Shown here: one piece after another, positions 45,463 through 63,318 of the stretch
How positions within the stretch are numbered: the first letter of the stretch is position 1
Layout of the letters: each line of letters begins with the position of its first letter
Source: Pelagihabitans pacificus
GTDB taxonomy: Bacteria; Bacteroidota; Bacteroidia; Flavobacteriales; Flavobacteriaceae
Length of the DNA: 64,000 bases
NCBI RefSeq assembly: GCF_009371985.2
Contig: NZ_VIKU02000002.1
Span: 310,001-374,000 of the forward strand
Direction: 5' to 3'
The notes under the pieces: model-generated
Told to the model about the DNA's origin: nothing
The model's database searches: none
The model's input: only the letters and a program-made list of their open reading frames with translations
Made by a program: the position numbers and the translations under genes

Positions 45463-45604
45463 ATGGACCCGGTCGGTTGTTTTAAGAGCGCCCACCCCTT
45501 CGATTATAAACCAATCTTGTTTAAGACGAATTCCATAGGGAAAACTATCCATATTAATCAGTATCTTGGTTGCAATACAAAAGTTCTAATCTTCTTTTTT
45601 TGAT

Positions 45605-47623: not shown

Positions 47624-47627
47624 ACGT

Positions 47628-49028
47628 ATGATTGGAAAACTGGGTGAACAGGTTACCCAACTGTTTCGCAAATACATGCCCGATGCTTTCGTATTTGCCA
47701 TTCTACTGACCCTGTTGGTGGCATTTGGCGCCTTGTTCTGGGTAGGCGTTTCGCCTCTTGAAATCATTGTTTCCTGGTACGACGGTTTTTTTGACCTTTT
47801 GGCTTTTGGCATGCAGATCGTATTAATTATTATCACCGGTTTCGCCATAGCCCTGTCCCCTGCAGTGAATAAAGGGATCGATTATTTGACCCGTTTTATC
47901 CGTACTCCCCGTCAGGTTTATTTTTTTGTGGTCATGATAGGGATGTTGCTTTCCTTGGTGAGTTTTGGATGGTTGGTGATTACCGCCGTATTGGCGAGGG
48001 AACTGGCGCTTCGGATAAAAGGCATCAACTATGCTTTTCTTATTGCCTGCGTTTATTTTTCCATGAATAGTTGGGTAATGGGGTTATCAAGTTCTATTCC
48101 GCTCTTACTAAATACCGACAAAAACTTTTTAATCGACGCTGGAATATTGGAAACCGTCATACCTACCTCGTATACCTTAGGAGCTTGGCTCAATATTACC
48201 ATGATACTACTCTTGGTGCTAGGAGCTCCCATCATCATGCTATTACTTTTACCAAAGCACCAAAAGCCAAAAGAGCTCTGTGAACTATTGGCTGAAAGTT
48301 CCGACGAGACCACCATGAGCATACAGGAGGAAGCCTCCCTTATTGAATTACCCAAAAAGGCAGTATCGGACAGATTGAACAACAGTGTGATATTACAAGC
48401 AATGATCGTGCTCATGGGCGTCACCTATATCGTATATCATTTCATGACCAAGGGGTTGGACCTCAACTTTAATATCATGATTTTCTTTTTTTTGATTCTG
48501 GGCCTCCTTTTGCATAAAACCCCCATTCGTTACGTGGTGGCCATGAAGAGGGCCAGCAGTAATATTTCGGGAGTTTTGTTTCAATACCCCTTTTATGCGG
48601 GGATAATGGGCATTATGCTCTATACAGGCCTCGGGGAGAGACTGGCGCAATTATTGGCGTCGGTGGCCACCATTGACTCCTATCCCTTTTACGCCTACCT
48701 GACCGGTGGAATGGTCAACTTTGCCATCCCTTCGGCGGGTGGGGAATTTGCAGTGGTCGGTCCCGGAATAATCGAGGCGGTAAAGGAAATTGGGGCCGGT
48801 CTCCCGGAAAAACAGGTGACGGCGATGATTTCCCGGGCGTCGCTATCGATTGCTTATGGTGAAAGCCTTAGCAATATGTTGCAACCCTTTTATTTACTGT
48901 TGGTCATTCCGATTATGGCCAAGGGGGTCAATATTCATCCTAGGGACGTGATGGGCTATTTACTGATTCCGTTCTTGTTGTTTTTTGTCATCCAATCATT
49001 ATTGGTGGTTTTCATGCCCCTCGCCTAA
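47628..49028 (+). CDS. Short-chain fatty acid transporter (AtoE family)
   Basis: 466 residues with 10-12 hydrophobic segments. The opening FRKYMPDAFVFAILLTLLVAF and the Gly/Pro-rich GGMVNFAIPSAGGEFAVVGPG match TIGR00366/AtoE. Family knowledge: uptake of short-chain fatty acids such as acetoacetate or butyrate across the inner membrane. Coupled to the S9 peptidase gene by a 4-nt gap, although no functional link between peptides and short acids is evident. Its stop overlaps the stop of the convergent VOC gene by 4 nt. Confidence 0.85.
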   Translation: MIGKLGEQVTQLFRKYMPDAFVFAILLTLLVAFGALFWVGVSPLEIIVSWYDGFFDLLAFGMQIVLIIITGFAIALSPAVNKGIDYLTRFIRTPRQVYFFVVMIGMLLSLVSFGWLVITAVLARELALRIKGINYAFLIACVYFSMNSWVMGLSSSIPLLLNTDKNFLIDAGILETVIPTSYTLGAWLNITMILLLVLGAPIIMLLLLPKHQKPKELCELLAESSDETTMSIQEEASLIELPKKAVSDRLNNSVILQAMIVLMGVTYIVYHFMTKGLDLNFNIMIFFFLILGLLLHKTPIRYVVAMKRASSNISGVLFQYPFYAGIMGIMLYTGLGERLAQLLASVATIDSYPFYAYLTGGMVNFAIPSAGGEFAVVGPGIIEAVKEIGAGLPEKQVTAMISRASLSIAYGESLSNMLQPFYLLLVIPIMAKGVNIHPRDVMGYLLIPFLLFFVIQSLLVVFMPLA

Positions 49029-49405
49029 ACATCGCGATAAAAGGTCAGTCCGTTTTTATAGGGGTCATAGAATGCAAATTCCTTGGTGCCCCAGGCGGTC
49101 TCCCTTAGCAAAGTGTGTGCATGAAAAACACCCTTTTGACCGAATTCCTCATAGAGCGATTCAATGTTTTCAGCGACAATACGAAGCATCGGGCGGTCGA
49201 TTTCCATCTCCCACTCGGAGGCATCGTGCCATTGCAAATGAATTTCAATGGCATCGCGAATAATCCCTGCATACTTGGGATTTTTGGAATCATCCGCAAA
49301 AGCAATCTTAAAGCCCAATCTGTTTACATAGAAATCCAAGGCTTCGACTACATCCTTCACCGGAAGTACGGGATGAATCTGATGTAAATATCCTTTTGGT
49401 TGCAT
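49025..49405 (-). CDS. VOC (glyoxalase-fold) family protein
   Basis: 126 residues. LHQIHPVLPVKDVVEALDFYVNRLGF at the N-terminus, the central HLQWHDASEWE strand and the final TKEFAFYDPYKNGLTFYRDV show the VOC pattern with an aromatic final strand, as in bleomycin-resistance-like dimers. No signal peptide. A promoter-like sequence lies 4 nt upstream of the ATG, suggesting a nearly leaderless mRNA if real. Substrate unknown. Confidence 0.8.
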   Translation of the reverse strand: MQPKGYLHQIHPVLPVKDVVEALDFYVNRLGFKIAFADDSKNPKYAGIIRDAIEIHLQWHDASEWEMEIDRPMLRIVAENIESLYEEFGQKGVFHAHTLLRETAWGTKEFAFYDPYKNGLTFYRDV

Positions 49406-49409
49406 TGAC

Positions 49410-49440
49410 TAAATGTAACAGTAAATTATTACATTGACAA
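49410..49440 (-). promoter_or_regulatory. Possible promoter of the VOC gene
   Basis: On the minus strand TTG (49440-49438), 20-nt spacer, TACATTTA (49417-49410), one mismatch from the -7 consensus. Transcription would start at or within a few bases of the ATG. Confidence 0.3.
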
Positions 49441-49459
49441 TCCTTTCAATACACCCGTA

Positions 49460-50290
49460 ATGGCCATCAAATTTCTTCCTTTGCTCTTTTTTCTAAGCGC
49501 GCTGTCGGTAGATGCGCAGGAAATTAAGGTAATGACCTATAATATAAAATACGACGATATCAATGATACCGTCAATAACTGGAATGATCGTAAAGATGCC
49601 ATGGTTCGACTTTTGCAAAAAGAGCAGCCGTCCTTCATCGGTCTTCAGGAAGCACTCCTACGTCAATTGACCTACCTGGACGAAGCATTACCAGACTATC
49701 GGTATATAGGCGTCGGAAGGGACGATGGAAAACAAAAAGGGGAATTCTCCCCTATCTTATACGATGACAGCCGATACCACATGCTTCGATCGAATACCTT
49801 TTGGCTATCCAGGACCCCAGAAAAAGTATCCGTCGGATGGGATGCCGCCTTGGAACGCATCTGTACATACGGACTATTCGAAAACAAGCAAACCATGGAA
49901 AAACTTTGGGTTTTCAATACACACTTCGATCATGTGGGCACGAAGGCACGGAAAAAATCCGTGCGTCTTATTGTCAAAAAGATAAAAGAAGTAAACAGCC
50001 AAAATCTTCCAGTGGTGTTCATGGGCGATTTGAACCTTACCCCCGACCAAAAACCGATTGAATACCTGCAGACCAAAATGGATGATGGATTGCTTATTTC
50101 CGAAAATCCGATGAAAGGTCCATCGGGTACCTTCAACGGGTTTGACAGTCCCGCCCCTATAAATCGGCGTATCGATTACATTTTTGTAAAAGACCTTGCC
50201 GTAAGTACCTACCTGCACTTGGATGAACGATTGGAAAATAGAAAGCACATCTCGGACCATCTCCCGGTAATTGCCCTGCTGGAAAAATAA
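49460..50290 (+). CDS. Secreted endonuclease/exonuclease/phosphatase family protein
   Basis: 276 residues, signal peptide ending SVDAQ (about 20). Metal-dependent hydrolase motifs of the EEP fold are complete: TYNIKYDD (Asn), GLQEAL (Glu), FNTHFDH (His), FMGDLNLTP (Asp/Asn), RRIDYIFV (Asp) and SDHLPV (Asp-His). This group includes exported phosphodiesterases acting on nucleic acids or phosphate esters. Ends at a bidirectional terminator shared with the convergent hydrolase gene. Confidence 0.9.
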   Translation: MAIKFLPLLFFLSALSVDAQEIKVMTYNIKYDDINDTVNNWNDRKDAMVRLLQKEQPSFIGLQEALLRQLTYLDEALPDYRYIGVGRDDGKQKGEFSPILYDDSRYHMLRSNTFWLSRTPEKVSVGWDAALERICTYGLFENKQTMEKLWVFNTHFDHVGTKARKKSVRLIVKKIKEVNSQNLPVVFMGDLNLTPDQKPIEYLQTKMDDGLLISENPMKGPSGTFNGFDSPAPINRRIDYIFVKDLAVSTYLHLDERLENRKHISDHLPVIALLEK

Positions 50291-50291
50291 A

Positions 50292-50320
50292 AAGGCCGAA
50301 CAGTATGACAGTCCGGCCTT
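50292..50320. terminator. Bidirectional terminator between the EEP and hydrolase genes
   Basis: Stem AAGGCCG/CGGCCTT (50292-50298 with 50314-50320). On the minus strand it is followed by TTTTTATTTTT, so it is strong for the leftward hydrolase gene and weaker for the rightward gene. Confidence 0.75.
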
Positions 50321-50339
50321 CGTAATTTTATCACCTTCT

Positions 50340-51170
50340 TTAGTCTGTTAAGAATGAAATTAAGAGGTCGTTCAGCTCGTCGGCATGGGTAATATTCAAT
50401 CCATGTGGAGCTCCCTGCACTATTTCATACCGATTATTGGGAATACCCGCTGCGGCTTGGTCTGCCGACGTCTTAATCGGCACCGTTTCGTCGGAATCGC
50501 CATGGACGATCAACGTAGGCACGGTCACATTTTTAAGTTCTGTTCTAAAGTCGGTATGCATCCAGGCCAATGCAGCCTGTATTGTTGCCCTGGGAGATGC
50601 GTGGGATGCAATGATGAAATCGTATTCCAATTGCGCTTCACTTACGCGATCTTTGTTGTCGTCGTAGTTATAAAATCCTTTGTGAAAGTTTTTTAAAAAC
50701 CCCACCCGGTCGTTTTGAAGGGCTTCCTTCATTTCCTCTAAGGCATCCACGGGAACTCCATCCGGATTATCCTCTTTTTGCTTGACCAAAGGAATGATAC
50801 TACTGATCAGGACTGCTTTGGCGATTTTATCCGATCCGTAATCCGTGAAATAACGGACTACCTCACCACCTCCCATGGAAAACCCGACGATTATCGCATC
50901 TGCTAATTGAAGTCCCTCAATGATAGTGTTCAAGTCGCTTGCCAAAGCCGAGTAGTCATACGATTCCCAAGGTGCCGAGGAAATACCAAATCCCCTTCTG
51001 TCGTACGAAATACATCGAAACCCCGATTCTACAATTTTCCACACTTGTTGCTCCCAAGATTTTCTACTCAGGGGCCACCCGTGAATTAATAGTACAGGCT
51101 GACCACTCCCATAATCCTCATAAAAAATATCTACTTGTTCTTTTCCTGTTTTGTTTGTTATAAAAGGCAT
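50340..51170 (-). CDS. Alpha/beta hydrolase (chloroperoxidase/haloperoxidase-like)
   Basis: 276 residues, no signal peptide. HGWPLSRKSWEQQ (oxyanion), GFSMGGGEVVRYF (nucleophile Ser at about 98), VHGDSDETVP (Asp at about 229) and GAPHGL (His at about 258). The family includes cofactor-free perhydrolases and esterases. Cytoplasmic. Single gene with a shared terminator. Confidence 0.88.
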   Translation of the reverse strand: MPFITNKTGKEQVDIFYEDYGSGQPVLLIHGWPLSRKSWEQQVWKIVESGFRCISYDRRGFGISSAPWESYDYSALASDLNTIIEGLQLADAIIVGFSMGGGEVVRYFTDYGSDKIAKAVLISSIIPLVKQKEDNPDGVPVDALEEMKEALQNDRVGFLKNFHKGFYNYDDNKDRVSEAQLEYDFIIASHASPRATIQAALAWMHTDFRTELKNVTVPTLIVHGDSDETVPIKTSADQAAAGIPNNRYEIVQGAPHGLNITHADELNDLLISFLTD

Positions 51171-51407
51171 CTATCGTGTTTTTAGTTATTGTCTAAAATT
51201 ATTTGAAAACATGAAATTTTCTTGACTCATTTGACATTAAGATTCGCTGTTTTACCTAGTAGTTTAACACCTTTCCCTTATTAAAGGATTCGACAGGATA
51301 CTATCTTATATATGACCAAGGCAATGCTGTTTCGGCCTAGGCAGCGTATCACCATTTCGAGGTCGGTTCCTTTATATTTCTTATATTTAAGATAAACAAC
51401 CTTCATC

Positions 51408-51800
51408 ATGTTACATAACAAATTTTGGCAGGCCTTCTTCGCATTGTCACCGATACTTATATTTATCATTGCCATTATTGGATATATGGTCTTTGTGTTT
51501 TCGCTTGTGGGGAATATTGAACAGCTAGAGAATTCCGGGAATGTCCCCGCATCCTATATACTTGGTAGCATAGGCACCTTTTTTGTGGTCATTCTACTTG
51601 CTATTTTCATCGCCTTAAGCAGTTTGATTTTTTACATTATGCATGCAGTACAAAATCCAAATCTCAAAGAAAATAATCTTTTATTGGTATGGATTCTGCT
51701 ATTCATCTTTGTAGGCGGTATCGGAAAACTGATGTATTGGATCATTGAAATCGTAGGGAAGCGAAATCAAGGTATTTCAACTGATCAAATCCGAACATGA
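51408..51800 (+). CDS. Small three-helix membrane protein
   Basis: 130 residues. Three membrane segments at about 6-33, 50-82 and 92-117 with a short polar C-terminus. No conserved motif known to me. Its final 4 nt (ATGA overlap) include the start of the sugar-isomerase-like gene, implying coupled expression. Confidence 0.7.
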   Translation: MLHNKFWQAFFALSPILIFIIAIIGYMVFVFSLVGNIEQLENSGNVPASYILGSIGTFFVVILLAIFIALSSLIFYIMHAVQNPNLKENNLLLVWILLFIFVGGIGKLMYWIIEIVGKRNQGISTDQIRT

Positions 51801-52753
51801 AAACGAGAAGGGATTTTATCAGGAAAACGAGTTTGGGAGGTATCGCCTTGGGAATACCTTTACCTGCCTTCACAACAGCAAAACCGTCAACCGATAAGCA
51901 CCGATCCATGTCAGCACCAAAAATATCCTTGGCCCAATGGTCATTACACAGGGCAATAGAAAACGGCACTATGAAAGCAGTGGATTTTCCCAGTATAGCT
52001 AGCAACCAATACGCGATTCGAGCAGTTGAATATGTAAACCAATTCTATCTGAAGCATGCGGCGGATCAAAAGTTCTGGCTACAGATGGGACAACGGGCCA
52101 AAGACGCTGGCGTACAGAGCCTGTTAATTATGGTCGACGATGAGGGTAATTTGGGGAGTTCAAAAGCAGTGGAACGCAAAAAAGCGGTAGAAAACCATTA
52201 CAAGTGGATCGATGCGGCCAAACTCTTGGGATGCCATTCCATAAGGGTAAACGCTTTCGGGGAAGGAACCAGACAGGAACTGTATGATGCACTGATAGAC
52301 GGACTCGGAAATTTGGCCGCTTATGGAGCAAAAGAGAATATCAACGTATTAATCGAAAATCACGGACTGCATACCTCTGATGGAAAGTTCATGGTAGGGA
52401 TCTTAAAGCAGGTAAACAGTCCCTTTTTGGGCACCCTTCCCGATTTTGGCAACTGGTGTCTGACAGCTGAATGGGGTAGCACCCAGGGCGACAAATGCGA
52501 TACCGTGTACGACCCGTATGAAGGATTATCCGATTTTCTACCCTATGCCAAAGGAGTCAGCGCCAAAACATATGATTTTGATGAAGCGGGGAATGAAGCC
52601 AAAATGAACTACCATAGATTGCTCAAAATGGTGAAGAATTCTAATTTCGATGGGTATATTGGTATCGAGTACGAAGGCGAAAAGATGTCCGAACCAGAGG
52701 GTATCAAGGCGACCAAAGCATTGATTGAAAACGTTTGGAAGGAGTTGGAGTAG
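51797..52753 (+). CDS. TAT-exported sugar phosphate isomerase/epimerase-like protein
   Basis: 318 residues. The N-terminus MKTRRDFIRKTSLGG is a twin-Arg signal with an RRDFIR motif. The TIM-barrel features of the xylose-isomerase-like family are visible: LAQWSLHRAI (start), LLIMVDDEGN, CHSIRVN, VLIENHGLHTSD (Glu and His), TLPDFGNWC (Asp) and IGIEYEGE (final Glu), consistent with a metal site. Periplasmic location, so a phosphate-free sugar substrate is likely (inference). Overlaps the upstream membrane protein by 4 nt and ends 3 nt from the convergent cyclase gene. Confidence 0.85.
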   Translation: MKTRRDFIRKTSLGGIALGIPLPAFTTAKPSTDKHRSMSAPKISLAQWSLHRAIENGTMKAVDFPSIASNQYAIRAVEYVNQFYLKHAADQKFWLQMGQRAKDAGVQSLLIMVDDEGNLGSSKAVERKKAVENHYKWIDAAKLLGCHSIRVNAFGEGTRQELYDALIDGLGNLAAYGAKENINVLIENHGLHTSDGKFMVGILKQVNSPFLGTLPDFGNWCLTAEWGSTQGDKCDTVYDPYEGLSDFLPYAKGVSAKTYDFDEAGNEAKMNYHRLLKMVKNSNFDGYIGIEYEGEKMSEPEGIKATKALIENVWKELE

Positions 52754-52756
52754 GTT

Positions 52757-53848
52757 TTAGACCAGTTCCATTTTAAACAACTCGATAGGTTCCTGCTTGC
52801 CCCGAAGTGTCAATTTTCCTATCTGTACAAATGTAGTGCCCATGTCTTTGCTTAATTCTTTCAACAAGTTTCCGGAAATCAACACATCGGCATTATAGCC
52901 GTTACACTGATCTTGGATACGAGCGCTAGTATTCAATACATCCCCTGTATAGATGATGTCTTTTTTTATGATTCCAATTTCACCTGTGGTTACTTCCCCG
53001 ATATGATAACCGGCCTTGAACTCGGGAACCAACCCGAAGCGCTCAAGGTATGTAGCGCTCTTTCTGTGGAAAACCTTTTTGATTTTCTTAAAACATCGAA
53101 TACAATTATCATGGCGAACTCCCTTTTTTTGTTGCCAAGACACCACGATCTCGTCACCAACATATTGATATATTTCCCCGGAAGTATCGAGAATGGCTTC
53201 GGTCATATCGGCGTAATAAGTCTTCAATAACCTAAAATACCTCTTGTGGCCCAGTCGTTCCGCAATGCTGGTGGAGGCACGCATGTCGAGGAACATAAAA
53301 ATACGTATTTCGGACTTGGGCACATGATACCTGCCAAAAAGAAAATTGTAGAGCACCCCGTTCCCGAGATACTGACTTATCTCCGAGAAAAACAAAGTAA
53401 GAACCAAGGTGACCCCGATATATATAATAATGCTCCAAAATGCAAAATTACTCACGAATCGTTGCAGATCATTAAGGGCTTTTTCAGATGTAGACTCGTC
53501 GGCAATCAGACTGTTCACCAATGCTACCCCGATTAGAAATAGTATGATAAAGATTAGATAAAATGAGGTTTTCAGCACTATTTTAACCCACAACGCCTGT
53601 TTTTCGAAGCGTCTTCTCAGCCATACTACCTCTATCCAGCCCTGTAATAGTCCCATAAGCAGACTGCTTGGTAGGATGACTTTCAGGTTATTGTAAAAAT
53701 CATACCGGTTTCCCGTAGCAGGATATAGAGGTTCCCGACCTAGGATTCCGTATTCGACTAAGAGAAATACCAATCCAAAAAGGAGCCAAAAAACTCCAAA
53801 TGGAACAATCTGTTTAAAATAACGTCGATATCGCGGTCGCAATCCCAT
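52757..53848 (-). CDS. Adenylate/guanylate cyclase domain membrane protein
   Basis: 363 residues. Four or five membrane helices in the first 170 residues. Class III cyclase domain at about 178-350: FMFLDMRAST (first metal Asp), YVGDEIVVSW (second metal Asp), a C-terminal half with TGDVLNTSARIQDQC. The Lys/Asp or Glu/Cys substrate-specifying residues cannot be assigned safely. Role: makes cAMP (or cGMP) at the inner membrane; the signal is unknown. Confidence 0.88.
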   Translation of the reverse strand: MGLRPRYRRYFKQIVPFGVFWLLFGLVFLLVEYGILGREPLYPATGNRYDFYNNLKVILPSSLLMGLLQGWIEVVWLRRRFEKQALWVKIVLKTSFYLIFIILFLIGVALVNSLIADESTSEKALNDLQRFVSNFAFWSIIIYIGVTLVLTLFFSEISQYLGNGVLYNFLFGRYHVPKSEIRIFMFLDMRASTSIAERLGHKRYFRLLKTYYADMTEAILDTSGEIYQYVGDEIVVSWQQKKGVRHDNCIRCFKKIKKVFHRKSATYLERFGLVPEFKAGYHIGEVTTGEIGIIKKDIIYTGDVLNTSARIQDQCNGYNADVLISGNLLKELSKDMGTTFVQIGKLTLRGKQEPIELFKMELV

Positions 53849-54283
53849 TCCCTAAAAATAAACTTTCTGATATGAACAAAGGATATTTATTTGGGAAGGG
53901 TTCCTTTCAAACGCAGCGAGAACCCGCTGCCCTATCAAATTGCGATGATAGCAATTTAAATAACAGGGTTACCACTGCCTAAACCTGATTTCCCACGCCT
54001 TTCATGTATGGCCCATACATCCAGATTGTTTTCGCCTAAGCATACTCTTTCGTGTAATTGCCCATTCGATACCTAAAATTTTAAAAAAAATGGTTATTGC
54101 GTAATAGTATGATTATCAGTATTTTAATTAATTTTTACAATTTTGTATTTCTTAAATTATGTTAAATAATCTATAAAATAGTACCTTTTTATACATAGTA
54201 CTGTAACAAAACTAATACTATGTCGTCTAGTAGGTGTAAGCAAATCAAAAACAACTATAAAATCATTATAAAAACTAGAAATC
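53849..54283 (+). other. Gene-poor spacer with two adjacent hairpins
   Basis: About 435 nt upstream of the microprotein array. Two perfect short hairpins stand side by side: GCAGCG/CGCTGC (53913-53930, 6-nt loop) and AAATTGC/GCAATTT (53937-53957, 7-nt loop). Further on, an 8-bp inverted repeat ACATAGTA/TACTATGT (54193-54200 with 54216-54223) lies 60 nt before the first microprotein. No protein gene is supported; no exact TAnnTTTG promoter was found, only CAATTTTG (54138-54145) and TACCTTTT (54182-54189). Confidence 0.5.
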
Positions 54284-54397
54284 ATGAAAGCATCATTCAA
54301 CAGAACGGTAACAGAATCGAAATCAGGACAGTACTTTTCATCCTTGAGCCATAGCAAAAGGGCTCAGTGGGCTCAATACAGAAATTTTAATCGATAA
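54284..54397 (+). CDS. 37-aa basic microprotein, tandem copy 1
   Basis: A 37-codon frame, ATG to TAA. The peptide is basic (seven Lys/Arg and one Glu) and aromatic-rich, with Phe5, Tyr17, Phe18, Trp29, Tyr32 and Phe35; core motif HSKRAQWAQYRNFNR at the end. It differs from copies 2 and 3 at residue 14 only (Ser instead of Thr). Of 12 base differences to copy 2, 11 are synonymous, which indicates selection on the peptide. No signal peptide, no membrane helix. Function unknown to me; an RNA- or ribosome-binding role is compatible with the charge but not shown. Confidence 0.75.
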   Translation: MKASFNRTVTESKSGQYFSSLSHSKRAQWAQYRNFNR

Positions 54398-54436
54398 ATA
54401 ATTGATTAGGTTGGACATCATGCCAACTGGGTTTAC

Positions 54437-54466
54437 GAAAATGACAATTGAGTAGCAATCATTTTC
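54437..54466 (+). promoter_or_regulatory. Hairpin between microprotein copies 1 and 2
   Basis: GAAAATGA (54437-54444) pairs with TCATTTTC (54459-54466), with an extra TTG/CAA inside. No T-run follows, so it may be a processing or stability element rather than a terminator. A smaller GTTGG/CCAAC hairpin lies just before it (54410-54426). Confidence 0.4.
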
Positions 54467-54532
54467 TTCCCATATTCAATTCTAAGATTTTTGTGTCATA
54501 AAAAAACAAACAACACTTTAAAACTAAAAATA

Positions 54533-54646
54533 ATGAAAGCATCATTCAACAGAACGGTAACGGAGTCAAAAACAGGACAGTACTTTTCATCTTTGAGCCA
54601 TAGCAAAAGGGCTCAGTGGGCGCAGTACAGGAACTTCAACCGCTAA
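54533..54646 (+). CDS. 37-aa basic microprotein, tandem copy 2
   Basis: Same peptide as copy 3, and as copy 1 except Thr14. Codons use different third bases from copy 1 at residues 10-12, 20, 30, 31 and 33-37 (for example Arg AGG versus AGA, Asn AAC versus AAT). A 135-nt spacer with a hairpin separates it from copy 1. Confidence 0.78.
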   Translation: MKASFNRTVTESKTGQYFSSLSHSKRAQWAQYRNFNR

Positions 54647-54685
54647 TTAAAAAAAACTATCAACAACATTCTAAAAACGACCATC

Positions 54686-54799
54686 ATGAAAGCATCATTC
54701 AACAGAACGGTAACAGAGTCAAAAACAGGACAGTACTTTTCATCCTTGAGCCATAGCAAAAGGGCTCAGTGGGCACAGTACAGGAACTTCAACCGCTAA
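54686..54799 (+). CDS. 37-aa basic microprotein, tandem copy 3
   Basis: Identical in peptide sequence to copy 2; the three base differences (codons 10, 20 and 30) are all synonymous. Spacer to copy 2 is 39 nt, so the last two copies are probably on one mRNA. Confidence 0.78.
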   Translation: MKASFNRTVTESKTGQYFSSLSHSKRAQWAQYRNFNR

Positions 54800-54840
54800 T
54801 CACGGTTTTACCCAACAGGTCATCATCATAAAACAACGTC

Positions 54841-54954
54841 ATGAAAACATTCATCAATCAGTATCCAACGGAATCGAGAAGGTTCGTCTCCCTGACCAAA
54901 CTTAGGGATAGCAAGCGGTTTCGTTGCACAGAACAGTCATTTAGCCTTCAATAG
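54841..54954 (+). CDS. Diverged 37-aa microprotein, fourth member
   Basis: Also exactly 37 codons, 41 nt after copy 3. It shares the Met-Lys start, Asn6, the tripeptide Thr-Glu-Ser at 10-12 and Ser-Lys-Arg at 24-26 at the same positions as the other copies; the C-terminal motif with Trp is absent, and it has a Cys at 29. Reading one base further on after Lys-Arg gives a VAQ...FN series reminiscent of the WAQYRNFN end, so it may be a frameshifted copy. The unshifted frame stops 20 nt before the terminator. Real gene or decaying copy is not settled. Confidence 0.5.
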   Translation: MKTFINQYPTESRRFVSLTKLRDSKRFRCTEQSFSLQ

Positions 54955-54974
54955 TAGCCATACTAACACTGGGT

Positions 54975-55012
54975 AAAAAGGGAATACACCTCATCAATGT
55001 ATTCCCTTTTTT
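54975..55012 (+). terminator. Rho-independent terminator of the microprotein array
   Basis: Perfect 14-bp stem AAAAAGGGAATACA/TGTATTCCCTTTTT (54975-54988 with 54998-55011), 9-nt loop, ending in a T-run. It separates the array from the DGPF gene at 55132. Confidence 0.88.
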
Positions 55013-55131
55013 CCTTTTACGGTACCCATGCCCATCGAATTTTTAAAAAAATAGCATAATTTAGGAAATAGGATGTCCCATTTAGAAAGTATCGATTGTC
55101 CTAAGCATATAACCTTTAAAACTTAAATCAT

Positions 55132-55479
55132 ATGAAAGAGTTTATGATGCTTTTCAGAACAGAAAGAAATGACGCACCACCACCTTCTCCGGAACAAATG
55201 CAAGCCATGGTCAAAACGTGGCAAGATTGGATCGGTGGTATTGCGGCCCAAGGCAAATTTGTAAGTACGGATGCCCTCGGCTATCAGGGGAAGACAGTTC
55301 ATGCCGATGGGTTGGTCACCGATGGGCCCTATGCTGAAATCAAGGAAATCGTTGGAGGCTATATCGTAGTAAAAGCTGAAAACCTGGAGGAGGCCGTAAA
55401 ACTATCGGAGGGCTGCCCTACCCTATCCATTCCAGGCGGCAAGGTAGAGGTGCGGGATGTAATGGTGTTCGATATGTAA
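55132..55479 (+). CDS. DGPF/YCII-related domain protein
   Basis: 115 residues. The family signature is clear: EFMMLFRTERND at the start and VTDGPYAEIKEIVGGYIVVKAEN in the middle (DGPF-type motif, here DGPY) with a C-terminal VEVRDVMVF strand. A dimeric alpha+beta barrel protein, cytoplasmic. Family knowledge: DGPF proteins are found next to ECF42 sigma factors and may be their targets; the next gene here encodes that type of sigma factor. Confidence 0.88.
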   Translation: MKEFMMLFRTERNDAPPPSPEQMQAMVKTWQDWIGGIAAQGKFVSTDALGYQGKTVHADGLVTDGPYAEIKEIVGGYIVVKAENLEEAVKLSEGCPTLSIPGGKVEVRDVMVFDM

Positions 55480-55622
55480 TTTACGAGCCGTCGTTGCGAG
55501 GTAGTTACCCAAGGACAGGGTTCGAGGCAATCGCTTAATTTCCGATACGAAAGCACCAACAGATTGCTTCTTTTCGCGCGCTATGACGGCTCCTTTTTAC
55601 CATTGCCATAACAACTATCCGA

Positions 55623-56864
55623 ATGAACCGTCAAGAACTTATACCACACCTTTTCCGAACCGAATACAGCAAGATAGTTTCGGTACTCTGCAAAACCTTT
55701 GGATTTTCCCAGATCGCGCTTGCCGAGGATATCGCCAGTGAGACCTTTCTGACCGCTACGGAAACTTGGGGCCTCAAAGGAACTCCCAAAAATCCAAGGG
55801 CCTGGTTGTATCAAGTTGCCAAAAACAAGGCCCGGGACGGTTTTCGTCACAATAAGGTATTTCAACAGAAAATAAAGCCCGAACTTGAACATCGAAACAC
55901 CACTTCAATCGAATTGGAGATTGATCTATCCGAACCAAATATCAAAGACAGTCAACTGCAAATGCTTTTTGCAATATGTACCCCTATCATATCCAAGGAA
56001 GCCCAAATTGCCTTGGCACTGCGCATTCTTTGTGGTTTTGGGGTTACCGAGATCGCGAAGGCATTTTTAAGCAACAAAGAGACGATTAATAAAAGGCTAC
56101 ACAGGGCCAAAGAAAAATTGCGGGCTGCCAAAATCGATTTGGGAATCCCCCATACAATAGCCATTGAGGAGCGGCTCGACAATGTCATCTCTGTGGTATA
56201 CCTTCTCTACAACGAGGGCTATTATTCGACCACCTCAGAGATAAATATTAGAAAAGAGCTTTGTATCGAGGCCATGAGACTTTCACTTCTATTGTTGGAT
56301 CATGAACCGACCAATCTCCCGAAAACAAACGCGTTAATGGCTTTGTTCTGTTTCCATGCCTCTAGATTCGAGGCACGCTCCAACAAGGATGGGGAACAAA
56401 CCCTATATTTCGATCAAGATATTGGAGCTTGGGACCAAGAGCTTATAAAAAAAGGGGTAGCGTATCTTCGATTGTCCAGTTTGGGTACGGCCATTACCAA
56501 ATATCATCTGGAGGCTGTTATCGCCTACCAGCATACCCAACCAAACGATTCCAAGGAAAAATGGGGACAGATACTGCAATTGTACAATCAACTGCTTCAG
56601 TTAAGATACTCCCCGATTATAGCTTTGAACCGCACCTATGCGCTATCCAAGGCCTACGGTAAACAGGTGGCGCTGGAGCAGGCACTAAAAATAGATATGA
56701 AAAACAATCACTTCTATCATTTGTTGTTGGCAGAACTGTACTCCGATTCGGATAGGAAAAAACAAAAGGACCACCTTGAACTTGCCATGGTGACCGCCAC
56801 CACAGATCACGAAAAAAAAATAATTCTACGTAAATTGGATAAAGCGAAACAAAATGGCATATGA
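55623..56864 (+). CDS. ECF42-type RNA polymerase sigma factor with C-terminal TPR-like extension
   Basis: 413 residues. Sigma-2 region at about 10-80 (AEDIASETFLTA), sigma-4 at about 130-180 (LCGFGVTEIAKAFLSNKETINKRLHRAKEKL; helix-turn-helix). The long C-terminal part (about 185-413; LDNVISVVYLLYNEGYYS, ALFCFHASRFEARS, ALNRTYALSKAYG) is the ECF42 extension, DUF6596/TPR-like, thought to control activity in place of an anti-sigma factor. DGPF gene upstream (143 nt) fits this group. The TfoX-like gene starts inside its last codons (11-nt overlap). Confidence 0.9.
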   Translation: MNRQELIPHLFRTEYSKIVSVLCKTFGFSQIALAEDIASETFLTATETWGLKGTPKNPRAWLYQVAKNKARDGFRHNKVFQQKIKPELEHRNTTSIELEIDLSEPNIKDSQLQMLFAICTPIISKEAQIALALRILCGFGVTEIAKAFLSNKETINKRLHRAKEKLRAAKIDLGIPHTIAIEERLDNVISVVYLLYNEGYYSTTSEINIRKELCIEAMRLSLLLLDHEPTNLPKTNALMALFCFHASRFEARSNKDGEQTLYFDQDIGAWDQELIKKGVAYLRLSSLGTAITKYHLEAVIAYQHTQPNDSKEKWGQILQLYNQLLQLRYSPIIALNRTYALSKAYGKQVALEQALKIDMKNNHFYHLLLAELYSDSDRKKQKDHLELAMVTATTDHEKKIILRKLDKAKQNGI

Positions 56865-57216
56865 CGAATTTTTGGCCGATCGGATCCGGCAAGTTTTGAA
56901 ACAGCAGTCAATCGTTTTTGAGGAAAAGAAAATGATGGGCGGGCTTTGTTATATGGTCGACGGTAAAATGTGCCTAGGACTTGACATCGATAAAAAAACC
57001 GATACCTCACGTCTAATGTGCCGAGTTGGTCCCGATGCATACGACCATGCGTTGGCAAGACCTTACTGTACCCCCATGAATTTTACCGGTCGTGTTATGA
57101 AAGGATATGTTTTTGTTGCCGAAGATGGTTTCGACTTGGACAAGGACCTCAATTATTGGCTTCGATTGTGTCTGGATTTCAATCCTTTGGCCAAGAGCAG
57201 CAAGAAAAAGAAATAG
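56854..57216 (+). CDS. TfoX/Sxy N-terminal domain protein
   Basis: 120 residues. The TfoX-N pattern is present: EEKKMMGGLCYMVDGKMCLGL and CTPMNFTGRVMKGYVFV; basic KKKK tail. In Proteobacteria TfoX governs competence, but short TfoX-N proteins are common elsewhere and often accompany sigma factors or DGPF genes. Overlaps the sigma-factor gene by 11 nt, so translation is coupled. Ends 6 nt from the convergent GH26 gene. Confidence 0.82.
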   Translation: MAYDEFLADRIRQVLKQQSIVFEEKKMMGGLCYMVDGKMCLGLDIDKKTDTSRLMCRVGPDAYDHALARPYCTPMNFTGRVMKGYVFVAEDGFDLDKDLNYWLRLCLDFNPLAKSSKKKK

Positions 57217-57222
57217 TGGGTC

Positions 57223-58329
57223 TTACAGCTCATCCCTAGTGATAACGATCGTACTGTTCATCATCTCAACGGCATTCGCATTATCGATGATAGCGACTTC
57301 GGCTCCTGACCAACTGTGCCATTGCAGAAAATAGGCTGCCTTTCCCTTCAACATATCGGCCCATTGCATCATGTTCCAATTCCCGTACCCATCTTCCAGC
57401 GGGCCCGATTCGGATAGCACCAACGTTTTTCCCAGGGATTTTAGTGCTTTATAATCCGGAAAATCCGGTGAACTTCCGTAAAAATCCATACCCACCAAAT
57501 CAACTACCTCATTTCCTGGATAAAACGTTGTTACTTCAGCGTTCCAATATTGATAGGGAATCACAGAATATACCCATATAAGGTTGTCCAAACCGTAATC
57601 AAAGGTAAGGGTATGGTAAAGGTCTCTCCAAAGTGCAATAAAATCGGCCTCGTTGGTTTGTTGGTTGTTATAAGCGTTGATGCCCCACCAAAAGAAGTCT
57701 CCGTTCATTTCGTGAAAAGGACGCCATATAACGGTGACTCCGGCATCTTGAAGTTTCTGTAGCGCCCCGGCGATCTGGTCCAGTTCCGTTCGATAATTGA
57801 TCCATGCCTTCGTTTGGACCTCCCCCTTGAGAAGGGATTTCAAATTGATTTTCCCTTTATTCTCAACGGTGTTCCAATATACATTGTAACCCTCTACGAA
57901 AGGGTTATCCGCATGCCAGCTTAAGGTAACCAAACCTCCTTGGTTCCAATGGTCGATCAGGGATTGCACGGGATAGTCCGAACTAGGAAAAAAGCCCAAG
58001 TCGGCTCCCATCAGCCCGACATGTCTCCCCGAAATATCGGCCAGCATATCGACATATCGATTATAATACGTTGTCATGTCATCCGGCCCGTTGCCGCAGT
58101 GCTGCCCAACTATGAGTTGTTCGTTCTTGACCAGTTCATCAAAATACGCTAGCAGTTGCCTTTTGCTCCGATCAAGAAAGAGCACTTCGCTATCGATCCC
58201 GGGTGGATTAAGCAGATCATTTGTATTGCTGCCTTCCGTGTTTTCAATATTCGGGAGTGTTTCAACAGTATCTTTAGGGACACATCCTATAAACAGTAAC
58301 AACCCCGACAGTAGAAGTATTTTTTGCAT
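57223..58329 (-). CDS. Glycoside hydrolase family 26 lipoprotein (mannanase-like)
   Basis: 368 residues, lipobox LLLFIGC (Cys 16). The acid/base motif WRPFHEMNGDFFWWG lies at about 200-214 (Glu at about 205), the nucleophile in LVLSESG at about 307 (Glu). TLSWHADNP and the GNGPDDMTTYYNRY region also fit the family fold. Family knowledge: GH26 enzymes cleave beta-1,4-mannan or related glucans. Expected on the outer-membrane surface or in the periplasm. No SusC/SusD pair is in the window, so it is not part of a visible polysaccharide locus. Confidence 0.9.
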   Translation of the reverse strand: MQKILLLSGLLLFIGCVPKDTVETLPNIENTEGSNTNDLLNPPGIDSEVLFLDRSKRQLLAYFDELVKNEQLIVGQHCGNGPDDMTTYYNRYVDMLADISGRHVGLMGADLGFFPSSDYPVQSLIDHWNQGGLVTLSWHADNPFVEGYNVYWNTVENKGKINLKSLLKGEVQTKAWINYRTELDQIAGALQKLQDAGVTVIWRPFHEMNGDFFWWGINAYNNQQTNEADFIALWRDLYHTLTFDYGLDNLIWVYSVIPYQYWNAEVTTFYPGNEVVDLVGMDFYGSSPDFPDYKALKSLGKTLVLSESGPLEDGYGNWNMMQWADMLKGKAAYFLQWHSWSGAEVAIIDNANAVEMMNSTIVITRDEL

Positions 58330-58519
58330 CTTGGTGGGTTTTGCGGTCTCTTCATTAAAACACCAAGAATCGTTCCATAAATCGACCCAAGAAAAGGATA
58401 AACACAGGAGGTATGAAAGACTTTCAAGTGGTCAAATCAGCTAGCACCTAAAATTTTAACTTTATTATCTGTCTAAAAATGAGTATCTTATGACTTAGCA
58501 ACCCATAACTATTTTCGTC

Positions 58520-58942
58520 ATGGCCACCATTAAATCATTAAACAAATGGGCCAATGCCCATACGTACTACCCGTTAGATCTGCTGCGACTCGCCCTTGGG
58601 GTTTTCCTATTTATAAAAGGAGTCGATTTTATGTCGAACCAAGCCCAGATGGCTGAAGTTATCAAACCTTTTGAAAACATGCCGGGAGGCATGCTTATTC
58701 TACATTATATCGTCCCGGCACATTTTGTAGGCGGTTTCTTAATCGTGGTAGGTCTATTGACCCGCTGGGCCGTGCTGGCACAGTTACCAATCCTAATTGG
58801 AGCTGTCTTGGTCAATTTCTTGGGGATTATGAATCCAACAAACCTGATATTGGCTCTTTCGGCCTTAGCCATTTGTGTTTTTTTTCTGTTCTACGGTTCT
58901 GGAAAACATTCGATGGACTACTATTTGAAAATGCAGAAATAA
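58520..58942 (+). CDS. DoxX family membrane protein
   Basis: 140 residues, four membrane helices. LDLLRLALGVFLFIKGVDFM, then VPAHFVGGFLIVVGLLTRWA and a hydrophobic C-terminal pair, fit DoxX-like proteins. Some members take part in thiol or redox processes; function here is unknown. ATG at 58520; the upstream DNA has no clear promoter. Confidence 0.8.
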   Translation: MATIKSLNKWANAHTYYPLDLLRLALGVFLFIKGVDFMSNQAQMAEVIKPFENMPGGMLILHYIVPAHFVGGFLIVVGLLTRWAVLAQLPILIGAVLVNFLGIMNPTNLILALSALAICVFFLFYGSGKHSMDYYLKMQK

Positions 58943-59258
58943 CCAATCAACGGTTTCCTCAACTCACTTGGTCTAAGGGGCATAAGGGACAGTAAATACG
59001 GTTAGTCTTCACCCTTTATCAAAGGGGTCGTTCGTATAGACAAAGTTTGGGAGGGGTAAAAGCAGATTTAAAAAATCATATTCCTATCCAATACTTGGAA
59101 ATCCTCAGGACGTCATGGGTGGAATGCCTCTAGTGTCAGGTTCGTTTGACTGCAACGCCCACAGGTTAGCATTTTGGCCAAGGGAACAGAGCCCTACAGC
59201 GGCCATTCTAAAACTAGGGGAATTCAATCGGTACCAATAGTACTATTTAGGGAAACTA
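58943..59258 (+). other. Spacer between DoxX and the molybdenum hydroxylase operon
   Basis: 316 nt between convergent genes. One small hairpin, CCCTTT/AAAGGG with a 3-nt loop (59012-59026), and no T-run. I see no gene, promoter or repeat. Confidence 0.4.
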
Positions 59259-60065
59259 TCACAGTGCTTCCAACGCTCTTTTTACATATACCCTGGCCAA
59301 ATGTGAGCGGTACTCCTCGTCTGCAAAGTGGTCGCTAATAATATCATCGACTCCATCCATGGCATGCTTTGCGGCACTGCTAGTGCCATCGTAAGCATTT
59401 TCTACCGCGGTGGCCCTGAAGGGTACCCCCGATACTCCCGTAACACCTATCTGAACGCCATCCCCTTTTTTGATGGCCGCTACCCCAACGACTGCAAAAC
59501 GGCTGGCTGATTGAAAGAACTTTTGATAGGTACCTTGGGAGACTTTGGGAAATCGAATGGCGGTAATAATCTCGTCATCTTGCAAGGCGGTCAAGAAAAG
59601 CGCTTGGAAAAAATCGTTGGCCCCGATCGTACGCTTACCGTCTTTCCCCTCGGCCACGATGGTCGCCTCACAAGCCAACACCGTTGCCGGATAGTCCGAG
59701 GCGGGATCGGCATGCGCCAAACTGCCCCCTAATGTGCCACGGTTCCGAACTTGGATATCCCCGATACATAATGCCGCTTGGGATAGAATGTTTACATGTT
59801 CCCTAACCAAATCGGAAGTAGCGATTTGATGATGCGTACAGTTGGCTCCTATAACAATTTCGTCCCCTTCCTCGGTGATGGTGTTCATCTCTGAGATACC
59901 ACCGATATCAATCAATACAGAGGGTGTGGCGAGTCGTAGTTTCATTGATGGAATCAAACTATGGCCTCCCGATAAAATTTTGGCCTCATCACCGTGCTCT
60001 TGCAATAAGGTCAAGGCCTCTCCCAAAGAGGACGCTTTTATATAATCAAATTTTGCTGGTATCAT
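59259..60065 (-). CDS. FAD-binding subunit of a molybdenum hydroxylase (CoxM-like)
   Basis: 268 residues. KILSGGHSLIPSMKLRLATP (about 33-52) and IGDIQVRNRGTLGGSLAHADP (about 101-120) are the two FAD-binding motifs of this family. C-terminal CODH_FADC-like domain (about 170-268). Transfers electrons from the iron-sulfur subunit to FAD and onward. Third gene in the operon, 173 nt after the large subunit; the gap contains no gene I could see. Confidence 0.92.
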   Translation of the reverse strand: MIPAKFDYIKASSLGEALTLLQEHGDEAKILSGGHSLIPSMKLRLATPSVLIDIGGISEMNTITEEGDEIVIGANCTHHQIATSDLVREHVNILSQAALCIGDIQVRNRGTLGGSLAHADPASDYPATVLACEATIVAEGKDGKRTIGANDFFQALFLTALQDDEIITAIRFPKVSQGTYQKFFQSASRFAVVGVAAIKKGDGVQIGVTGVSGVPFRATAVENAYDGTSSAAKHAMDGVDDIISDHFADEEYRSHLARVYVKRALEAL

Positions 60066-60238
60066 GTTTCTTATTATTTGGTTTACCTCGGTTTTTTTAA
60101 ATTTCTATTCTCGCTTACTTAGCTGTTGGCAGTTCAAAAGACAAAAGAAACAAGATAAAAAACGAAAGACCCTTAATTGTTAAAACCAATATGTTACTGA
60201 AAACTTCTATCTTCCGTCTTATTTCTAACAGCTCCTGT

Positions 60239-62599
60239 CTACGCATGCATCGCTTTCCAAACGCGTTGGGGTGTTAAGGGCATTTGGATGTCGGTCACGC
60301 CCAAATGCGAGAGGGCATCGACCACGGCATTGACCACCGCAGGGGTAGATCCTATAGCACCCGCCTCTCCGGCACCTTTGACCCCTAAGGGATTATGCGG
60401 ACAAGGGGTGACGGTACGGTCGGTTTCGATCATGGGAACGTCATCTGCACGCGGCATGGCATATTCCATATAGGAACCGGAAAGCATTTGTCCCACTTCG
60501 TCATAGACTACCTCTTCCAATAACGCTTGTCCTACGCCTTGGACTACCCCACCTTGAATCTGACCATCAACAATCATCGGGTTCATCACATTGCCGACAT
60601 CATCGCAGGCCAAAAAACGTTTCAAATGAACCTTCCCCGTATCCGAATCGACCTCTACTACCGCGATATGCGTTCCAAAAGGATACGTAAAGTTGGTCGG
60701 ATCGTAGAAACTTGAAAAATCCAATCCGGGCTCCAATCCTTCCGGGTAATCGTGAGGTACATAAGCGGTCAAGGAAACATCCCCAAATGAGACGGACTTG
60801 TCGGTTCCTTTTACCGTCCATTTTCCTTCGGCATACTCCAAGTCTTCCTCCGCCGCTTCCAGTTTATGGGCTGCTATTTTGGCTCCTTTTTCCAATACTT
60901 TTTCAACACTCTTTATGATGGCACTTCCACCTACCGCCAAGCTTCTGGACCCATAGGTGCCCATACCAAAAGCCACCTGGTCGGTATCACCGTGCTCAAT
61001 TTCGACATCGGCCATATCAATCCCCAATTTATCGGCCACGAATTGGGCGAATACGGTCTCATGTCCCTGACCGTGGGAATGGGTACCTGTAAACACCGAT
61101 ACCTTACCGGTGGGTTGTACACGAACCGCCCCCACTTCATAGAGTCCGGCACGAGCCCCCAAAGAACCGACGACGGCCGATGGGGCAATACCGCATCCTT
61201 CTATGTAGGTGGATATCCCGACCCCCAAAAGTTTTCCATTTCTTCGGGCTTCTTCCTGTTCTTTACGGAATTCCTCATAGCCCAACATTTCCAATCCTCT
61301 TTTTAAAACAGCCTCGTAGTTACCGCTGTCGTATTGTAACGCCACCTGGGTTTGGTAGCCAGGTTCATTGACTCCATCAAAAGGAGGGATGAAGTTTTTG
61401 AACCGTATTTCAGCAGGATCCATATTCATTTCCTTTGCTGCCTTGGAAATGATCCGTTCCAACAAATAGGTAGCCTCGGGACGGCCTGCCCCACGATAGG
61501 CATCGACCGCAACGGTATGGGTGAACGGTGCGGTTACGTTCAAGTGGATCAACGGCGTAGTGTACACGCCTTGAAACAACGTTCCATGTAAATAGGTAGG
61601 TACTGCCGGGGCAAATGTGGATAGATAGGCCCCCAGGGCACAGTACTCATCGGTTAAATGGGCCACTATCTTACCATCCTTGTCAAAGCCCATTTTGGAT
61701 TTCACCACATGATCGCGCCCATGCGCATCGGTCAAAAAGGCCTCACTGCGATCGGAGGTCCATTTTACCGGTCTCCCAATTTCTTTTGAAACCCAAGTGA
61801 GAAGTGCCTCCTCTGTATAGTGGTATATCTTACTTCCGAATCCGCCTCCGACATCGTAGGATAGTACACGTACCTTATGTTCGGGTATTCCCAACACAAA
61901 AGCACATAGTAACAAGCGGATCAAATGTGGATTCTGGGTGCTGGTATACAAGGTCCATTTTCCCGCATTTACATCATAGTCGGCGATATAACTCCTGGGT
62001 TCTATGGCATTCGGTGCCAGGCGTTGGTTTCGGTATTCCATCTCGGTAACGTGATGTGCCGATGCCAAGGCGGCCTCCACTTCTGCCCGATCGTTGCCGA
62101 TACACCAATCAAAAGCTGCATTATCTGGCCATTCATCGTGAACAAGGGGAGCGCCGGAATCCATCGCTTTTTGTGGGTCGGTCACCGCAGGAAGGGGCTC
62201 ATAATCGACCTCGACCATTTCGGCCGCATCACGCGCCTGTTCCAAGGTTTCGGCGATTACAATGGCTACCGCTTCCCCCAAATGTCTTATTTTGTCTTTT
62301 GCCAATAGTGGATGCTTCGGCTCCCGCATGGTTTCCCCATTTTTAAAATTGACCTGCCAACCACATGGCACACCGTATTCCCCACAGCCGTCTTCCGCCG
62401 TATATATGGCCACTACACCTGCCATATTTCTTGCATTGGTCGTATCGATCCGTACAATCTTCGCGTGGGCATACGGACTTCGCACAAATGCCGACTGTGT
62501 CATTTTAGGTAATTTGATATCATCGGTGTAGCGCCCGGCACCTTTCAGAAATCGAGCATCTTCACGTCTTTTGATTGGTTTTCCTATAAATGTTCCCAT
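60239..62599 (-). CDS. Molybdopterin-binding large subunit (form II CoxL/aldehyde oxidoreductase-like)
   Basis: 786 residues. Xanthine dehydrogenase family Mo subunit: FIGKPIKRREDARFLKGAGRY at the start, GGGFGSK (about 251), AYRGAGRPEA (about 370) and GVKGAGEAGAIGS (about 745; catalytic Glu). The AYRGAGR loop is the form II type; true CO dehydrogenases carry AYxCSFR, so CO oxidation should not be assumed. Likely oxidises an aldehyde or N-heterocycle with water as oxygen source. Stop of the 2Fe-2S gene and this start are 3 nt apart. Confidence 0.93.
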   Translation of the reverse strand: MGTFIGKPIKRREDARFLKGAGRYTDDIKLPKMTQSAFVRSPYAHAKIVRIDTTNARNMAGVVAIYTAEDGCGEYGVPCGWQVNFKNGETMREPKHPLLAKDKIRHLGEAVAIVIAETLEQARDAAEMVEVDYEPLPAVTDPQKAMDSGAPLVHDEWPDNAAFDWCIGNDRAEVEAALASAHHVTEMEYRNQRLAPNAIEPRSYIADYDVNAGKWTLYTSTQNPHLIRLLLCAFVLGIPEHKVRVLSYDVGGGFGSKIYHYTEEALLTWVSKEIGRPVKWTSDRSEAFLTDAHGRDHVVKSKMGFDKDGKIVAHLTDEYCALGAYLSTFAPAVPTYLHGTLFQGVYTTPLIHLNVTAPFTHTVAVDAYRGAGRPEATYLLERIISKAAKEMNMDPAEIRFKNFIPPFDGVNEPGYQTQVALQYDSGNYEAVLKRGLEMLGYEEFRKEQEEARRNGKLLGVGISTYIEGCGIAPSAVVGSLGARAGLYEVGAVRVQPTGKVSVFTGTHSHGQGHETVFAQFVADKLGIDMADVEIEHGDTDQVAFGMGTYGSRSLAVGGSAIIKSVEKVLEKGAKIAAHKLEAAEEDLEYAEGKWTVKGTDKSVSFGDVSLTAYVPHDYPEGLEPGLDFSSFYDPTNFTYPFGTHIAVVEVDSDTGKVHLKRFLACDDVGNVMNPMIVDGQIQGGVVQGVGQALLEEVVYDEVGQMLSGSYMEYAMPRADDVPMIETDRTVTPCPHNPLGVKGAGEAGAIGSTPAVVNAVVDALSHLGVTDIQMPLTPQRVWKAMHA

Positions 62600-62602
62600 A
62601 CT

Positions 62603-63067
62603 CTATGCTTTCATTTGTTCAGCTGCATGCTGAATCGATTTAACGATGTTGTGATATCCGGTACAACGGCAAAAATTTCCCTCGAGGCCATGCCGGATTT
62701 CCTCCTCGGTCGGATTTGGGTTGTTCTTCAAAATATCGGCGGCGGTCATCACCATGCCTGGAGTACAGAACCCACATTGCAACCCGTGGTGTTCCCGAAA
62801 GGCTTCCTGTATAGGATGCATTTGGTCTCCCTGAGCCATTCCCTCAATAGTCGTTACCTCACTGCCATCGGCCTGTACGGCCAATACGGTACATGATTTC
62901 ACCGCCTGGCCATCCAATGTTACCGTGCAGGCCCCACATCCACTGGTATCACAACCAATATGGGTTCCCGTAAGATCTAAATGCTCCCTGAGGAAATGCG
63001 ATAGACTGATCCTAGGTTCGATATCATGGGTCACCAATTTCCCATTTATCGTAATAGAGATATTCAT
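62603..63067 (-). CDS. [2Fe-2S] subunit of the molybdenum hydroxylase (CoxS-like)
   Basis: 154 residues. Plant-type ferredoxin motif [16 protein letters not shown] with a fourth Cys in KSC (about 38-63), and the second cluster [10 protein letters not shown] ... [12 protein letters not shown] (about 98-140). Passes electrons from the molybdenum site to FAD. First of the three enzyme genes as transcribed. Confidence 0.95.
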
Positions 63068-63318
63068 ATGCTATGTTTTAATTTATTCCCTTTTTAATCT
63101 TGTACCCAACGAGTCTAGACATCTCTTCCGTTGCTGACAAAAGAGCCCTACTTATTGACTATAAATCGAAAGGTTCGTTTGGGTTTCGGAGCAGGGTACC
63201 TATCCCCGAAAAGTTCTTGAAGATAAAGATTAAGATGGATATTTTACAAAATTTTGGGGAAAAATTTGCCTACTATTTAACAAGAGTATCAAAAATGTTC
63301 ATAGTCCTCAAAAAACAC

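Follow-up and report, generated by a model that had tools for sequence, protein, structure and literature searches.

Tandem arrays of cationic 37-residue microproteins in Flavobacteriaceae, most of them behind a common ECF-type promoter

A family of cationic peptides, mostly 37 residues long, is encoded in tandem arrays that are often closed by a divergent copy. Most of these arrays have one promoter in common, and the core of this promoter is also common to one family of sigma factors. The array described here lies in a stretch of 64,000 nt (hereafter referred to as the window) of contig NZ_VIKU02000002.1 of Pelagihabitans pacificus (GCF_009371985.2, hereafter the window's genome). On the strength of sequence comparisons, it is probably a stand-alone, sigma-driven operon of envelope-stress microproteins.

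Results

Organization of the array in the window

The array and its upstream region comprise the following features, in window coordinates:

54180–54202, + strand: operator-like inverted repeat AGTAC-N13-GTACT (AGTACCTTTTTATACATAGTACT), recognized by its conservation among arrays
54202–54207, + strand: −35-like element TGTAAC of the ECF-sigma type, within the block conserved upstream of arrays
54224–54229, + strand: −10-like element CGTCTA, 16 bp after TGTAAC, in the same conserved block
54284–54397, + strand: microprotein copy 1, type A, 37 aa (ORF, profile matches, dN/dS)
54398–54532, + strand: long first spacer with a possible second promoter (alignment by eye to other genera)
54533–54646, + strand: microprotein copy 2, type A, 37 aa (ORF, profile)
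54686–54799, + strand: microprotein copy 3, type A, 37 aa (ORF, profile)
54841–54954, + strand: fourth microprotein, divergent (type B), 37 aa, MKTFINQYPTESRRF...FSLQ (ORF, profile)
54975–55011, + strand: intrinsic terminator, a perfect 14-bp stem followed by a T run (fold z −5.27)

The initial annotation of this DNA had reported three 37-codon ORFs encoding almost the same peptide, and all its numbers were reproduced. Copies 1 and 2 differ at 12 bases, 11 of which are silent (the exception being Ser14/Thr14), copies 1 and 3 differ at 10 bases (nine silent), and copies 2 and 3 at three, all silent. The probability of at least 11 silent changes out of 12 is 5e-5 under a transitions-only null and 2e-7 under a null of all changes. 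The perfect 14-bp terminator said to end the array was also recovered (arms 54975–54988 and 54998–55011; fold z −5.27). The 1.2 kb around the array had further been described as free of other genes, and this description has to be corrected: a fourth 37-codon ORF, missed earlier, completes the array at 54841–54954. Its peptide has TES and SKR parts in common with copies 1–3, and it is matched by the family profile, which was built with this ORF included.

The first spacer aligns with long spacers of other genera, by eye as one of the more divergent rows. Of 25 spacers of about 135 nt that follow an early copy, 22, including that of the window, appear by eye to be related across genera, with ACAATTGAG...ACAACTCGG...CATATTTGTACCATCA as the conserved parts seen by eye. 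The sequence GATTTTTG at 54486–54493 resembles, by eye and imperfectly in the window, a sigma-A −7 box, and the long first spacer perhaps holds a second promoter. In two loci (L024 and L130), parts of the spacer look by eye like a short open frame.

The array of the window (array I) has upstream of it a divergent gene for a membrane protein with an adenylate/guanylate cyclase domain (52757–53848, − strand), which was found upstream of array I in six loci. On the other side lie the gene for a YCII-type protein (55132–55479) and that for an ECF sigma factor with DUF6596 (55623–56864), which we take to be of the ECF42/DGPF type; this pair adjoins array I in the window and in four other genomes. 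The DUF6596 sigma factor was considered as the array regulator and rejected, because it flanks array I and not array II.

Distribution and architecture of the arrays

The peptide search proposed in the initial annotation found homologous frames in all 10 genomes of the same genus, including the window's own; eight of these genomes have arrays at two places, one at three and one at a single place. Two further genera of Flavobacteriaceae were matched (E 3e-5 and 0.005) in this first search, which covered 60 relatives, and both were confirmed by profile. Weak matches (E 0.04–1.4) in G020 and in families of the order other than Flavobacteriaceae were discarded, none being recovered by a broader profile; L046 and L048, which are among them, had scored weakly with the first small profile. 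The family profile matched 115 of the 397 genomes of Flavobacteriaceae at E ≤ 0.1, and 54 of them at E ≤ 1e-5 (hand count from the result table). The genera with the family on named contigs include Maribacter, Pricia, Ulvibacterium, Arenibacter, Croceivirga, Croceitalea, Zeaxanthinibacter and Euzebyella. A search of plasmid and phage records for arrays gave no match.

A scan for ORFs in 138 sources (window region 45001–64000 and 137 loci, some overlapping) yielded 361 matches at 133 sources, 314 of them exactly 37 codons long. The 135 arrays obtained were reduced to 100 distinct arrays (267 ORFs) by dropping those contained in others; 16 are single, 29 double, 31 triple, 20 quadruple and four quintuple. 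According to a motif rule set by the analyst, 73 ORFs are of type B, and 68 of these close their array; in 32 arrays the final ORF is typed A instead, although several of these look B-like by eye. The last, divergent copy could have a role as partner, or it could be in decay, since some last copies are, by eye, shortened or degraded. Such last copies count against the coding reading, as do copies with an in-frame stop, seen in G008 and G377. An ORF of a third type, C (35–42 residues, with a pattern like HPHL.RPKIYF.IGFGWNTDR), lies between the promoter and the first copy in 20 of the 77 arrays with the promoter core described below.

Selection on the coding sequences

Within arrays, comparison of 146 pairs of type A copies from 63 arrays gave a pS of 0.37, a pN of 0.066 and a dN/dS of 0.14. 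Several copies may, as first suggested, be kept for gene dosage; only one of these pairs was identical in DNA, which suggests that each copy is under selection. Between arrays, the median dN/dS was 0.14 (maximum 0.89), as estimated from the first A copies of 93 arrays (2986 unsaturated pairs of 4278), and in the two remaining frames of this DNA the medians were 2.05 and 1.08. The dN/dS comparison that had been suggested thus puts synonymous change, per site, at about seven times the level of non-synonymous change. Type B is less constrained, with a median of 0.41 (276 unsaturated pairs of 35 copies).

The start regions of the 267 ORFs have A at positions −13, −12 and −11 in 86, 94 and 91% of cases, respectively, and at −3 in 81%, against a background of 37%. 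A at the matching positions is shown to promote translation in Flavobacterium johnsoniae (PMC6847099), which makes efficient translation of the array ORFs likely. By these sequence criteria the array ORFs are selected as proteins. The initial proposal of selected small proteins therefore stands, with 100 distinct arrays, a dN/dS of about 0.14, a flavobacterial start context, homologous frames in relatives and a predominance of synonymous changes.

The promoter common to most arrays

The block conserved upstream of the first ORF of most arrays consists of AGTACCTTTTTATRCATAGTACTGTAACAAAA, about 12 variable bases and CGTCTA. Its core, GTAAC-N15-18-CGTC, precedes 77 of the 100 arrays (within at most 450 nt upstream), and the operator was found, with no more than six mismatches in 23 bases, in 73 of these 77 (at most one mismatch to the consensus in 53, two to six in 20); four have no operator. 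The other 23 arrays have no core in the upstream DNA examined, which amounts to less than 130 nt for two of them, and control is therefore not uniform. A sigma-A-like box, CA[TC]CTTTGTA, is present within 120 nt of the first ORF in 12 of the 23 (L066, L072, L074, L078, L094, L111, L113, L122, L123, L124, L129 and L138), including one of the two with little upstream DNA. These boxes constitute a second promoter class, resembling the Bacteroidota sigma-A type, in place of the ECF core.

The pattern combining operator and −35 element, AGTACN{12,14}GTACTGTAAC, has 18 sites in the 10 same-genus genomes and none in the reversed control, and all 18 sites lie within about 320 nt upstream of an array; two further arrays of the genus (G001 and G008) lack such a site. 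In 395 genomes drawn from the order, the exact promoter pattern was found in seven, all belonging to Flavobacteriaceae. A search for the operator with one mismatch allowed served only to find loci; it matched 170 of 397 genomes of the family, a number that includes chance matches, the reversed control having matches as well. At one locus from this search (L178; G366:C1:1337176-1339471), ten listed (11 counted) one-mismatch copies recur every 252 bp exactly; they presumably belong to a tandem repeat that has nothing to do with the promoter.

A core shared with the GFO_1088/PG0214 sigma family

In the window's genome, TGTAACAAAA-N11-TCGTCT lies 48 nt before the gene for an ECF sigma factor of 169 residues, which NCBIfam places in the GFO_1088/PG0214 family (NF058625, E 7.8e-71). 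Downstream of this gene are those for a 146-residue protein, a putative anti-sigma factor with no significant match in Pfam, and a DUF4252 protein. Sigma factors of the family were detected in 40 of 60 relatives at E ≤ 1e-30, and 27 of 30 loci have GTAAC-N14-19-CGTC ahead of the sigma gene (two lack it, one was unparsed). The core of the array promoter is the sigma gene's own core, as would be expected for a member of a GFO_1088-family regulon. Four of 37 genomes of Flavobacteriaceae (G011, G013, G028 and G031) have no such sigma factor at E ≤ 1e-30, and the operator pattern was found in none of these four, a small number.

The bare core TGTAACN15-17CGTCT has 10 sites in the window's genome versus four in the reversed control, and only three of the 10 are at the two arrays and the sigma gene. 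The pattern TGTAACAA-N12-14-TCGTC gave 56 sites in the 10 same-genus genomes, with eight in the reversed control. Thirty of these sites became loci and were examined: eight lie before the sigma gene, 10 before arrays, five before an ABC transporter and three before a DUF456 membrane protein (the last two identified with Pfam), leaving four before none of these. The five such sites of the window's genome are all accounted for: two are at arrays, and one each is at the sigma gene, the ABC transporter and DUF456.

Palindromes at PadR-PspC and HTH_34 loci

A palindrome, AGTACTATGTGTTGCATAGTACC, is located about 40 nt before an operon of the window's genome that consists of a membrane-protein ORF, a PadR gene (PF03551) and a gene for a PspC-type protein. 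The PspC segment was recognized by eye in this genome; in the protein of a relative (L277), Pfam identifies PspC, LiaI-LiaF-TM_PspC and HAAS. A site with at most two mismatches to AGTACTTTGTNNNGCATAGTACC is found upstream of PadR, within about 1.3 kb, in all 10 genomes of the genus. At three other loci (L218, L257 and L269), a palindrome, AGTACTTTGTATTTCAAAGTA, lies beside an HTH_34 winged-helix gene and membrane protein genes, and looks like an autoregulatory operator of the HTH_34 regulator. This palindrome, too, is similar to the array operator, which makes the HTH_34 regulator a second candidate, beside PadR, for the protein that binds the latter.

Different microproteins behind the same promoter

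In other genera, a promoter variant, ATTACTTTGTTATRCATAGTACTGTAAC..CGTC, is followed by different tandem microproteins. We read by eye 28 of 30 loci from the one-mismatch operator search (L179–L206). The full promoter was present in 24, and a microprotein ORF followed it in every one of these: 21 are of the MRTL...WN.KRRYR type (26–35 aa) and three of types A or C, with L201 holding both the MRTL...WN.KRRYR and the 37-aa-family types. An ORF of 43–45 residues follows the MRTL...WN.KRRYR type in 14 of the 21 loci. The 28-aa ORFs look coding, with a median dN/dS of 0.32 (25 ORFs, 18 loci, 210 unsaturated between-locus pairs) and values of 1.64 and 0.88 in the other frames. Neither the 28-aa nor the 43–45-aa microproteins had a significant library match. 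Homology between the 37-aa and 28-aa families was considered, but a profile comparison gave a probability of 4%, and common descent is therefore not claimed.

The 37-aa A/B and 35–42-aa C types are found in the Maribacter-like clade, and the 28-aa MRTL..WN.KRRYR and 44-aa types elsewhere. It is about an even call whether these loci represent an undescribed stress response of Flavobacteriaceae, the main products of which would be tandem-repeated microproteins of 28–44 residues, with the promoter module (PadR-type palindrome plus ECF core) kept from genus to genus and the peptide families exchanged. An exchange of peptide families behind one promoter would mean that the effector is defined by its size, its charge and its Trp/Arg/Tyr C-terminus more than by its fold.

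Properties of the peptides

The type A peptide has a charge of +6, a pI of 11 and a GRAVY of −1.2; it is rich in Trp and Tyr and has no transmembrane stretch. An AlphaFold model was weak (pLDDT 67, pTM 0.29), with two helices; the C-terminal half, predicted to be helical, has a pLDDT of about 80. Because the hydrophobic moment is modest (0.31) and the model weak, membrane binding has no support from the peptide itself. The initial annotation knew of no family for the peptide, and our searches agree: none of Pfam, NCBIfam, PHROGs, PADLOC and the PDB sequences gave a significant match, the best sub-significant matches being to Rabaptin (E 0.096, A peptide), PHROG 31774 (E 0.016, 44-aa peptide) and a PDB sequence (E 0.1).

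Discussion

In the reading that we favor, an envelope-stress operon, the arrays would be transcribed only with the help of the GFO_1088/PG0214-family ECF sigma factor. A PadR-type repressor, itself coupled to a PspC membrane protein, would act at the palindrome next to the −35 element, on its upstream side, and so damp transcription. Envelope stress would release both controls, and translation of several copies, each strongly translated, would quickly lead to a high level of the peptide; tandem copies with strong start sites would fit such a need for amount. The peptide might then act stoichiometrically, in the cytoplasm or at the inner membrane, on an anionic partner, for which the inner face of the membrane, nucleic acid and the ribosome are candidates. 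It may be a protectant or an adaptor, rather than an enzyme or a secreted signal.

An alternative that we consider unlikely, but by far the most serious of those examined, is that the microproteins belong to another stress or growth programme, read by another ECF factor and with a palindrome regulator unrelated to PadR-PspC, such as HTH_34; the peptides could then be ribosome- or nucleoid-associated, for instance. The highly basic nature of the peptides (pI 11) and the presence of AGTACTTTGTATTTCAAAGTA at HTH_34 loci are consistent with such a programme, as is a caution, in a study of F. psychrophilum, that several ECF factors may recognize SM6-type promoters (PMC9723704). Nevertheless, 26 of the 30 examined TGTAACAA-N12-14-TCGTC sites are at the sigma gene, arrays, ABC transporter or DUF456, and the half CATAGTAC is common to the PadR-type palindrome and the arrays, whereas the HTH_34 sites read TTTCAAAGTA.

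Near-identical tandem copies would also be explained if each ORF encoded the precursor of a bacteriocin, RiPP or signal that is exported or modified. Tandem precursor genes are common among these, and the C-terminal halves of the peptides are indeed aromatic and basic. This is improbable, however: there is no hydrophobic signal stretch in these hydrophilic peptides (GRAVY −1.2), the conserved positions of type A run along the whole peptide, with no variable core, and among 25 arrays compared no neighbor cluster was found at more than seven loci. Locus I, locus II and the loci of other genera have different neighbors, with gene annotation covering those of locus I only.

Still less probable is a system of tandem genes like those of type I toxin-antitoxin loci, in which the short peptide would be a toxin held by an antisense RNA. 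Short tandem ORFs are known from the Ldr and Ibs loci of E. coli, but such toxins are expected to be hydrophobic and membrane-spanning, and the peptide here is hydrophilic and carries a charge of +6. The array region had no match in Rfam at the gathering score and the peptide none in PADLOC, and the ECF-type promoter is common to different peptide families. Finally, that the conserved element is a structured RNA with incidental ORFs is scarcely credible in spite of the strong upstream nucleotide conservation, and for the ORFs the pattern of substitutions already refutes it. Against it stand the codon-position pattern, dN/dS and start context, and the mostly constant length of 37 codons beside spacers of varying length; Rfam, searched up to E 1, gave a single match, to a miRNA model, which lies on the terminator and is below threshold.

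Proteins of this size are missed by gene callers, and the ones described here are conserved across many marine genera. Their common promoter names candidate regulators of envelope-stress microproteins in Bacteroidota, and is a good probe for unannotated microproteins.

Under the envelope-stress reading, the arrays would be sigma-controlled small proteins, a known kind, with an effector of no matched family. RMF and SRA of E. coli are stress-induced small basic proteins; the array peptides resemble them in being short, basic and, on this reading, stress-linked, but differ in that one peptide is encoded several times in tandem, the last copy often being divergent. In the open literature searched, with most subscription papers outside its scope, no title or abstract opening retrieved describes such arrays or regulons, or a GFO_1088/PG0214-family regulon with microproteins. 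The array promoter has the GTAAC / CGTC core and the spacing of the promoter of the sigma gene in the autoregulated GFO_1088/PG0214 operon, but its palindrome is absent upstream of the sigma gene in the one region compared (L212). Its −10 element contains a CGT box, like that of the ECF motif SM6 of F. psychrophilum (PMC9723704). The association of PadR, PspC and HAAS is described as a membrane stress system (PMC11237479); the PadR palindrome and the array operator have the same 23-bp span, AGTAC and CATAGTAC, but the left half of the array operator is degenerate, differing at several positions, and the arrays lie outside the PadR operon.
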